From Nitrososphaerota archaeon (lineage in GTDB: Archaea > Thermoproteota > Nitrososphaeria_A > Caldarchaeales > Wolframiiraptoraceae), in the NCBI GenBank assembly GCA_021160205.1, contig JAGHCZ010000107.1:1-5378 (forward strand): a stretch of DNA of 5,378 nucleotides, written 5' to 3'. Shown here piece by piece: positions 3,023-4,575 of this stretch. A model generated the notes under the pieces. It had not been told where the DNA came from, made no database searches, and saw nothing but the letters and a program-made list of their open reading frames with translations. The translations under genes and the position numbers were made by a program. How positions within the stretch are numbered: the first letter of the stretch is position 1; each line of letters opens with the position of its first letter.

Positions 3023-3029
3023 TTTATAA
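3023..3029 (+). promoter_or_regulatory. TATA box of the RAM-domain gene
   Basis: TTTATAA is centred at 3026, 27 bases before the ATG at 3053, again fitting a leaderless transcript. No Shine-Dalgarno sequence precedes the ATG. It mirrors the reverse gyrase box across the divergent gap, with centres about 97 bases apart. Confidence 0.7.
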
Positions 3030-3052
3030 CGTGGATTTACAGAGCTACTAAC

Positions 3053-3322
3053 ATGCCCACCGCATTTGTTCTGATAAATACCGAAATAGGATGCGAGGAG
3101 GAAATCCTGAAGGAATTGAAGAACATACCGAACGTGAAGGAAGCCTACGCCGTTTACGGCGTCTACGACATCGTGGCGAGAGTTGAAGGAGAGACGATGG
3201 ACGAATTAAAAGAAGTAATCTCCTGGAGGATAGCGCCTTAGGTTTCCTCCCTGGGCGCCCTCAGACGGAGACTGGATAAGGTTAGAAGTACTTTGACTAT
3301 GCTGGTGATCTCGGAATCCTAG
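3053..3322 (+). CDS. Stand-alone Lrp/AsnC C-terminal (RAM) domain protein, split by a 33-nt intron
   Basis: Proposed coding sequence is 3053-3231 joined to 3265-3322, giving 78 residues. It is a lone RAM domain (regulation of amino acid metabolism), the ligand-binding and oligomerising half of Lrp/AsnC regulators, without a DNA-binding helix-turn-helix. Such proteins form rings and may bind amino acids or modulate full-length regulators; the ligand here is unknown. Exon 1 encodes the family pattern MPTAFVLINTEIG, then PNVKEAYAVYGVYDIVARVEG and a helix ending VISWRI. Exon 2 supplies RRLDKVRSTLTMLVISES, the expected last helix turn and beta strand. Unspliced, the frame reads Ala-Pro after Ile60 and stops at TAG 3239-3241, giving 62 residues without the final strand. 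Both exons lie in the same frame because the intron is a multiple of three. The spliced stop (TAG 3320-3322) overlaps the tiaS stop. The alternative is a gene broken by a 33-bp insertion, but the BHB fold argues against it. Confidence 0.88.
3219..3271 (+). other. BHB splicing motif (hBHBh' fold)
   Basis: Central 4-bp helix GAGG/CCUC: 3226-3229 pairs with 3259-3262. The 5' bulge AUA (3230-3232) lies on the loop side and the 3' bulge AGA (3263-3265) on the exon side, the same topology as tRNA introns at position 37/38. Cutting after the second base of each bulge gives the intron ends 3232 and 3264. Inner helix: GCGCCU 3233-3238 with GGGCGC 3253-3258 (five Watson-Crick pairs plus one G-U). Outer helix: G3225-C3266, then UCUCC 3219-3223 with GGAGA 3267-3271, with U3224 bulged out. 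The 3-4-3 geometry is canonical rather than relaxed, so most archaeal endonuclease types should accept it. Confidence 0.85.
3232..3264 (+). other. Archaeal bulge-helix-bulge (BHB) intron, 33 nt
   Basis: This interrupts codon 60 of the RAM gene (AT|A) and contains an in-frame TAG (3239-3241). Removing it joins SWRI to RRLDKV exactly as the family expects. Excision would be by the tRNA splicing endonuclease and exon joining by an RtcB-type ligase, both standard in Archaea though not encoded here. A one-base shift of both cuts (after 3232 and 3265, both A) gives the same mRNA. The internal hairpin pairs 3233-3238 with 3253-3258 around a 14-nt loop. Confidence 0.87.
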
Positions 3323-4575
3323 AGCTGTAATTCTAGGGGCTTCGCTAAGTGCCTGCGAGCTGAGGGTGGAACTTCGTAGAAGCCTGTTTTGATGACGCGT
3401 GGAACTTCGATTAACTCGGCGGAATCCTCTCCGACCCTTAATTTGCACCTTCTACACCTGTAGCCTTTTTCATATCCTAAGCTTTTCATCCTCTTCCCGC
3501 AGAGGGGACATGTGGGAGGTTTTTTAACAACTTTCTTGGCGAGCTTCTTGATCCGAACTTTTTCGAGGTTTAAAGTAAGGCCCTGCGGCTTCAGCTTCAC
3601 CGCGCCGTAGACCGTTACTTCATCTCCGGGAATAAGCCGCAAGACTACGTCCCTGAAGCTCTTTGTCGGCTCATAAGCCGCGCAAGTTATTTCTCCGGTT
3701 CCATCTTTAAGCTTGAAAAACACGTGGCCTCCGATATCCCTCCTCGGAGCTTGGGAAACAACGCCGTCCACCGTCGCGTTAGCTCCGTGCTTAAGGTCGC
3801 AGATCTTGTACTCCTGATAATGAACATCAGTCGCTTGATTCGTCTCGAATATCGTGATGAACTCGATGGGTTCATTGATTTTCAACATCTTGAAAGCATT
3901 CATCAAAATATTTGGATCAATTCCCCTGATTCCCAGCAGGACCGGGCACGGAGTATGAGGAGTGATTCTAACCTCATCTGATTCGTAGTCAATATTATCG
4001 AAAGTATAGGGCCTAGTTGCTTTGTCCATGTCGTAGACAGATTTGGGATCCACCTTCCTCACGGTTCCCCAGTATTCCTTCGTTCTATGGGCAATTAGCT
4101 CGTAAGTCTTTCCGGAGCTTAGATCAGCTCCGATCGCGGCGAGGGCGCCCACGACCCCTTTTCCATCGCCGTAATGAACTAATTCGGCCCCTATTTCTTC
4201 CGCGAGCTTAAACGCGTCTTCTATGGGAATTATTTCATGTACAGCCCTCGAGTAAAAGTTTCTCAATCTCGAGTCTGGTTCTCCTCGAAGAAACGCTACC
4301 CCGGTTTCAGCGCCCTCACTTAGCTCGGAATATTCTTCAACGACATCAATTACAACTTTCTTAACGGGGTCTAGATCGCCGGTTTCGATTTTAACCGCGA
4401 TCGCCGCATTTCCGCGGGTTTTATATGGGCAATTAGGATTCAACCTGATGAGCCTGGGGAAGCCTATGACTTTTGCGCCGAGATCCTTCAGCCTCCTAAT
4501 TATGACTGCCGCTACGTAAGTCGTGCATCCGCCTTTCTTCGAATCCGTGTCGTCGACGCCGATCCAGAGGATCAT
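3319..4575 (-). CDS. tiaS: tRNA(Ile2) 2-agmatinylcytidine synthetase TiaS
   Basis: Uses ATP and agmatine to convert C34 of the tRNA-Ile2 CAU anticodon to agmatidine, so the tRNA reads AUA as isoleucine rather than AUG. This is the archaeal counterpart of bacterial TilS. At 418 residues it has family-typical length. The N-terminal kinase-like domain opens with IGVDDTDSKKGGCTTY (5-20), followed by TRGNAAIA (53-60), GKGVVGALAAIGA (138-150) and TYELIAHR (157-164). A middle part carries GIRG (215-218) and FETNQATDVHY (243-253). An OB fold spans about 265-345, and a zinc ribbon has Cys356, Cys359, Cys374 and Cys377, all of which help bind the tRNA. The ATG at 4575 has its own TATA box 28 bases upstream and no Shine-Dalgarno, so it is probably leaderless and transcribed separately from the B3/B4 gene 35 bases before it. 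Its TAG shares CTAG with the spliced stop of the convergent RAM gene. Confidence 0.96.
   Translation of the reverse strand: MILWIGVDDTDSKKGGCTTYVAAVIIRRLKDLGAKVIGFPRLIRLNPNCPYKTRGNAAIAVKIETGDLDPVKKVVIDVVEEYSELSEGAETGVAFLRGEPDSRLRNFYSRAVHEIIPIEDAFKLAEEIGAELVHYGDGKGVVGALAAIGADLSSGKTYELIAHRTKEYWGTVRKVDPKSVYDMDKATRPYTFDNIDYESDEVRITPHTPCPVLLGIRGIDPNILMNAFKMLKINEPIEFITIFETNQATDVHYQEYKICDLKHGANATVDGVVSQAPRRDIGGHVFFKLKDGTGEITCAAYEPTKSFRDVVLRLIPGDEVTVYGAVKLKPQGLTLNLEKVRIKKLAKKVVKKPPTCPLCGKRMKSLGYEKGYRCRRCKLRVGEDSAELIEVPRVIKTGFYEVPPSARRHLAKPLELQL

Follow-up and report, generated by a model that had tools for sequence, protein, structure and literature searches.

A predicted bulge-helix-bulge intron in the coding sequence of an archaeal stand-alone RAM gene, with related introns at other sites of the gene and in EF-2 and cbf5

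The sequence analyzed here (the window) is a 5,378 nucleotide (nt) stretch of contig JAGHCZ010000107.1 from a Nitrososphaerota archaeon. It has a gene for a stand-alone Lrp/AsnC RAM protein whose coding sequence is interrupted at positions 3232–3264. This 33 nt segment is very likely (probability about 0.95) a bulge-helix-bulge (BHB) intron of the pre-mRNA. Its splicing is predicted from sequence properties, i.e., the BHB structure, the predicted splice sites, the restored frame, the variable length in relatives, the selection on the second exon and the occurrence of such inserts at three sites of the same gene. The frame that begins at position 3053 reaches a TAG at 3239–3241 and gives 62 residues when unspliced (open reading frame (ORF) 3053–3241). 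The rest of the family C-terminus, RRLDKVRSTLTMLVISES and its stop, is encoded downstream of this TAG at 3266–3322. Joining 3231 to 3265 gives a spliced protein of 78 residues with the junction WRI/RRLD (slashes mark junctions and cut sites). The initial annotation had proposed the intron from the early stop with the family C-terminus just downstream, a canonical BHB fold and this seamless junction, and each of these is borne out. The analysis goes beyond it in that the intron is clade-wide, the RAM gene has three intron sites, and BHB introns are present in EF-2 and cbf5 of related genomes.

The minimum-energy fold computed on RNA 3212–3285 displays an outer helix (UCUCC with GGAGA), a central helix of four base pairs (GAGG with CCUC), an inner helix (GCGCCU with GGGCGC) and a 3-nt bulge, AUA, at 3230–3232. 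The minimum-energy drawing places the 3' side in a 2 x 4 internal loop; the pair G3225-C3266 yields the canonical 3-nt bulge AGA at 3263–3265. In two relatives, a canonical BHB with at least six inner pairs occurs at about one per 27,000–30,000 genomic positions when place and length are given, and one with at least four inner pairs at about one per 4,100–4,300.

A scan of genome_contigs with the 62-residue query gave 80 loci, and a further locus, L117, was added from the class search described below. The protein is uninterrupted in 72 of the 80 and interrupted in eight (L001–L006, L008 and L024), for which the record titles are Wolframiiraptor, Benthortus, Thaumarchaeota, Thermoprotei or 'archaeon'. 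The window and these nine loci share one insertion point, a single nucleotide position within the Ile codon of SWRI/RRLD (site A). Intron length is 33 nt in the window and 32, 30, 37, 31, 29, 30, 39, 33 and 30 nt in the others; four of the ten lengths are not multiples of three, and the downstream exon is found in all three frames. When spliced as the BHB predicts, 10/10 loci regain the family C-terminus (the N-terminus of L117 is off the contig end). All ten have a canonical BHB with the 5' bulge AU/A, a complete central helix (4/4) and 6–10 inner pairs, so that the geometry claimed for the window recurs in nine further loci. Standard pairs make up 96.3% of the site-A pair cells, compared with 40–55% in slid versions, and the covariation score is reached by 0 of 500 shuffles.

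The order and the class of the site-A genome G003 represent the same 44 genomes. These are relatives of the window's genome, which is outside the set, as is G002, the genome of L002. The RAM gene, sought at E 1e-18, is found in 38 of the 44; it is continuous in 24, has an insertion at site A in eight and at a second site, B, in six. The six genomes without a RAM gene at this threshold show 18 residues at a contig end (G045) or distant relatives (the others). The insert-less homologs in the 24 class genomes and the 72 genome_contigs loci align collinearly with the spliced product of 78 residues, a comparison that the initial annotation had suggested.

Site B falls within codon 12, with NTEI before it and GSEEE or GAEEE after it. 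Its introns are 25–27 nt (25 nt in four of six) and have the bulge AU/A. One of the central exon-intron pairs is U-A in four genomes but C-G in the other two. The covariation support from it is weak, as the score is reached by 23 of 500 shuffles and equaled by one slid version. The spliced site-B product has no match above 82% identity among the 120 database proteins listed. In a phylum sample of 161 genomes (cut-off E 1e-20; 118 with a RAM match) a third site, C, is present after codon 45 (VARVE/ADTME). It has a canonical 21 nt intron in at least two genomes among the matches listed (L320 and L321), which are outside the 44, in a further lineage of the phylum, and are near-copies of each other in sequence. 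Viral contigs gave one weak partial RAM match only, of 16 residues (L319).

The two 3-nt bulges, the 4-bp helix and the inner helix are present in 10/10 loci at site A, 6/6 at site B and 2/2 at site C, and in all 18 the exact exon junction results, with the family sequence restored, when each bulge is cut following its second base. By alignment, sites A and B adjoin invariant family residues. As the three sites are at different positions, they are taken as three independent gains. In a tree of the neighboring TiaS protein (41 rows), one change accounts for the site-A rows, with a support of 64/86, which is not strong, and the larger group around them includes five intron-less genomes; the site-B rows also need a single change (100/100). 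The site-A intron is common to the Wolframiiraptor-like clade, i.e., it is clade-wide.

The spliced protein matches PF01037 completely (1–73 of 73) and has no helix-turn-helix match, as in a stand-alone RAM (Lrp/AsnC ligand-binding) protein. Among solved structures, 2zbc (PDB; 78.6 bits, residues 1–76) is the best relative by sequence. It is a stand-alone RAM protein that aligns end to end with the spliced product and differs in that the RAM gene of the window is interrupted. A model of P0001 (97% identical, 36-row alignment) has a mean predicted local distance difference test (pLDDT) score of 95, and its last strand, residues 66–74, is in exon 2. Since the unspliced protein is without this strand, the model suggests that the normal fold would depend on splicing. 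Strong purifying selection acts on exon 2, as pairwise comparison of its first 12 codons gives 229 synonymous codon differences and 0 nonsynonymous ones. The database entry for the window gene, P0045, represents the truncated form; gene callers miss such spliced products, as had been anticipated.

A different possibility is that both forms matter, with splicing regulated and the 62-residue form having a role of its own. The intron is kept by the clade, and the cbf5 intron has been discussed as a negative regulator of expression (Yokobori et al. 2009, PMC2738675; this and the other PMC sources are cited from parts of their text). However, the unspliced frames of the nine site-A relatives end at varying positions in TAG, TAA or TGA, so that neither the length nor the end of the unspliced product is conserved, and insertions at sites B and C would truncate the protein quite differently. 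Regulation with a functional short form is therefore unlikely. None of the nine relatives ends at a conserved equivalent of the window TAG; the initial annotation had held that a shared natural end there would speak against an intron.

A retained insert, with the 62-residue protein as the product and the downstream part as a decaying remnant, is much less likely still. The 62-residue frame is open, P0045 has that form, and the match of this form to PF01037 (1–56) still reaches 41 bits. However, the last 17 of 73 profile positions are missing, the last strand among them, the truncated ends vary among relatives, and the site-B unspliced product would be merely ~15–20 residues. Strong purifying selection on exon 2 is also contrary to decay. 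Read-through of the TAG (pyrrolysine or suppression), with 11 extra residues kept in the protein, would suit a length of 33, which is divisible by three, and a TAG stop, but it is refuted by relatives in which four of ten introns shift the frame, the stops are TAG, TAA and TGA, and four of six site-B introns are 25 nt. An assembly artefact or chimaera might be suspected because nearly all the records are metagenome assemblies and L002 is on a 3.2-kb contig of a metagenome-assembled genome named Thermoprotei that may be mis-binned, but recurrence of the insertion at one nucleotide refutes it: the 10 loci are from separate records, differ in sequence and each have BHB geometry.

For the BHB intron, a mechanism is proposed in which cleavage, ligation and the enzymes involved are taken from archaeal tRNA and cbf5 splicing. 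The RAM transcript would fold into a canonical BHB, tRNA splicing endonuclease would cleave between the second and third bases of each bulge, and RtcB would join the exons into a 237-nt reading frame. The same RAM gene would have gained other BHB introns at two positions in two other lineages. The PF01974 endonuclease is present in 44/44 class genomes (two copies in 38, one in five and three in one); two copies in most genomes suggest the two-subunit enzyme type. RtcB is present in 40/44. The rtcB genes of G009, G012, G013, G018, G022, G034 and G040 are ORFs of ~890–980 residues in which the domain match breaks near position 50–84, as would fit an intein.

Several observations weigh against the intron interpretation. 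The fold energy of the single window sequence is ordinary (z -0.72; 46 of 200 shuffles at least as stable), and hence the single-sequence fold is no proof by itself. The minimum-energy fold of L024 is another structure, and the drawn outer helix is missing or shifted in L112 and L113 (site B). At site A the central exon-intron helix is invariant and thus cannot covary there. Both-sided changes are found at three inner pairs, a count that 256 of 500 shuffles reach; the measure of further pair types is reached by 336 of 500. These are the two of five measures in which site A does not rise above the shuffles. P0001–P0004 are continuous RAM proteins 91–97% identical to the spliced product of the window, so close kin may be without the intron; they represent either recent intron loss (intron-less kin) or cDNA assemblies. 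G006 (site A), G011, G030 (which has the EF-2 intron described next) and G043, possibly incomplete genomes, gave no RtcB match.

Introns in other protein genes were sought by comparing G003 (site A) with G036 (site B): a canonical BHB was counted as a match if, once it is taken out, the flanking segments meet as they do in an unbroken stretch of the other genome. This structure-based scan gave 18 and 17 matches, compared with 27 and 9 in a non-complementary control; after restriction to matches with a stop or frameshift the numbers are 8 and 7 versus 7 and 5. The score sums of EF-2 (88), cbf5 (82) and RAM site A (81) are above the best control (69), and RAM site B (66) is below it. These four were accepted because they are repeated in other genomes. 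The remaining matches resemble the non-complementary control and are not claimed. A split-alignment scan without the structure rule was too noisy and was discarded.

The EF-2 intron in G036 is 33 nt (IAH/VDHGKTT; G036:C1, ~191353–191385) and is at a site which we take to lie within the GTP-binding motif. EF-2 was matched in 44/44 genomes; the match in G016 begins at the edge of a contig, and that in G015, partial and with stops, is outside the DNA reading. The intron is seen in the DNA of 7/44 (G036–G039, G041, G029 and G030; loci L299–L304 besides G036). These introns are 30–33 nt and all have a canonical BHB. G040 (L305), of the same group as the carriers, has no EF-2 intron. The central helix changes from GCCC with GGGU to GCGC with GCGU, where the change in the Ala codon is synonymous.

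The cbf5 intron in G036 is 20 nt (G036:C3, ~13950–13969). By search, cbf5 is split or has a stop near residue 80 in 27 of 41 informative genomes and is continuous in 14; three are uninformative. The DNA was read in 14 of the 27 (L306–L318 included), and 14/14 have an insert of 13–23 nt that splits the Asp codon of GGTL-D-P after its first base. BHBs were placed by script in 12, six canonical and six relaxed; for L314, one of the relaxed, the script junction was off and was corrected by eye, and L316 and L317 were read by eye only. In several cbf5 introns the inner helix is very short or absent. Seven site-A genomes have a continuous cbf5, and cbf5 of G001 is present in pieces only. The crenarchaeal cbf5 intron is at the same position, in the codon of the catalytic Asp (PMC2738675, in part). 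An intron common to Caldarchaeia-like archaea and Crenarchaeota may predate their split. Splicing of protein transcripts by the tRNA endonuclease probably recurs in the phylum and is not peculiar to cbf5, with three separate BHB intron gains in RAM, an intron within the GTP-binding motif of EF-2 and the shared Asp-codon intron of cbf5.

The features of the window are listed in Table 1. The spacing of the TATA-like element to the ATG would be compatible with a leaderless transcript. At 3319–3322 a single CTAG palindrome includes the stop of exon 2 and, on the other strand, that of tiaS; by this tight overlap of the two gene tails, the end of the spliced frame is marked as a gene end. The minus strand of the window also has what is presumably a partial reverse gyrase, named from the sequence.

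Table 1. Positions of the RAM gene, the predicted intron and its structural elements, and neighboring features in the window
Feature	Position	Strand	Remarks
TATA-like TTTATAAC	3023–3030	+	~25 nt 5' of ATG; read by eye
RAM gene exon 1	3053–3231	+	59 codons, then AT of codon 60 (Ile)
Outer (exon-exon) helix, 5' arm, UCUCC and G3225	3219–3225	+	U3224 bulged out
Central 4-bp helix, exon strand, GAGG	3226–3229	+	pairs with 3259–3262; invariant in 10 loci
5' bulge AU/A	3230–3232	+	cut predicted after 3231
Predicted BHB intron, 33 nt	3232–3264	+	contains in-frame TAG 3239–3241
Inner helix, 5' arm, GCGCCU	3233–3238	+	pairs with 3253–3258; some pairs covary
Inner helix, 3' arm, GGGCGC	3253–3258	+	fold and comparison
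Central helix, intron strand, CCUC	3259–3262	+	fold and comparison
3' bulge AG/A	3263–3265	+	cut predicted after 3264
RAM gene exon 2	3265–3322	+	A of Ile60, then RRLDKVRSTLTMLVISES; stop TAG 3320–3322
Outer helix, 3' arm, CGGAGA	3266–3271	+	fold and pair counts
tiaS, neighbor	3319–4575	-	Pfam
B3/4-domain gene	window	-	Pfam

If the interpretation is correct, a second gene with three independent gains, together with EF-2, makes the gain and loss of archaeal pre-mRNA introns a comparative subject, with questions of the places where introns insert, of their arrival in the absence of a homing gene and of their loss. The natural substrate range of tRNA splicing endonuclease would also be widened.

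Archaeal tRNA introns are removed by splicing endonuclease, and the exons are joined by RtcB. The cbf5 pre-mRNA intron of Crenarchaeota was reportedly described by Watanabe in 2002. According to part of PMC7714728, only one additional BHB intron, that of cbf5 mRNA, had previously been reported, to which a case in a 5' untranslated region (UTR) was added; this agrees with the mention of cbf5 as the known protein-gene case in the initial annotation. In the literature consulted, cbf5 is the one cellular gene known to have a BHB intron within its coding sequence. No RAM or EF-2 intron was found in the open-licence literature, which leaves most subscription journals outside (parts of PMC12397907, PMC13149111, PMC11291895, PMC3293823, PMC2738675 and PMC7714728). 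The RAM intron resembles tRNA introns in BHB geometry, cut sites and size, which is within their range of 11–175 nt (PMC2738675, in part). It differs in that the host RNA is an mRNA and there is no tRNA body aiding recognition. The BHB of HVO_1309 mRNA in Haloferax volcanii is likewise an mRNA substrate of the splicing endonuclease, but is in the 5' UTR, whereas the RAM intron is in coding sequence (PMC7714728, in part). Putative 12-bp introns in an archaeal virus, with splicing unproven (Peng et al., as told in part of PMC2738675), are also short inserts in coding genes; the RAM insert differs in that it is often frame-shifting. The closest system is the crenarchaeal cbf5 intron, a short BHB intron in coding sequence that is cut between bulge residues 2 and 3, has no homing gene, is lineage-specific and varies in length, 16–44 bp in cbf5 (PMC2738675, in part). 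Here the gene and position differ, crenarchaeal BHBs are mostly described as unconventional while those of RAM are canonical, and RAM splicing is predicted from sequence. By Pfam the window gene is a RAM gene and not cbf5 with its catalytic Asp codon site, i.e., the mechanism would be alike but the locus is different. The observation is real, with the RAM gene as a new host for a rare but known type of intron, one of a broader set of introns in protein genes.
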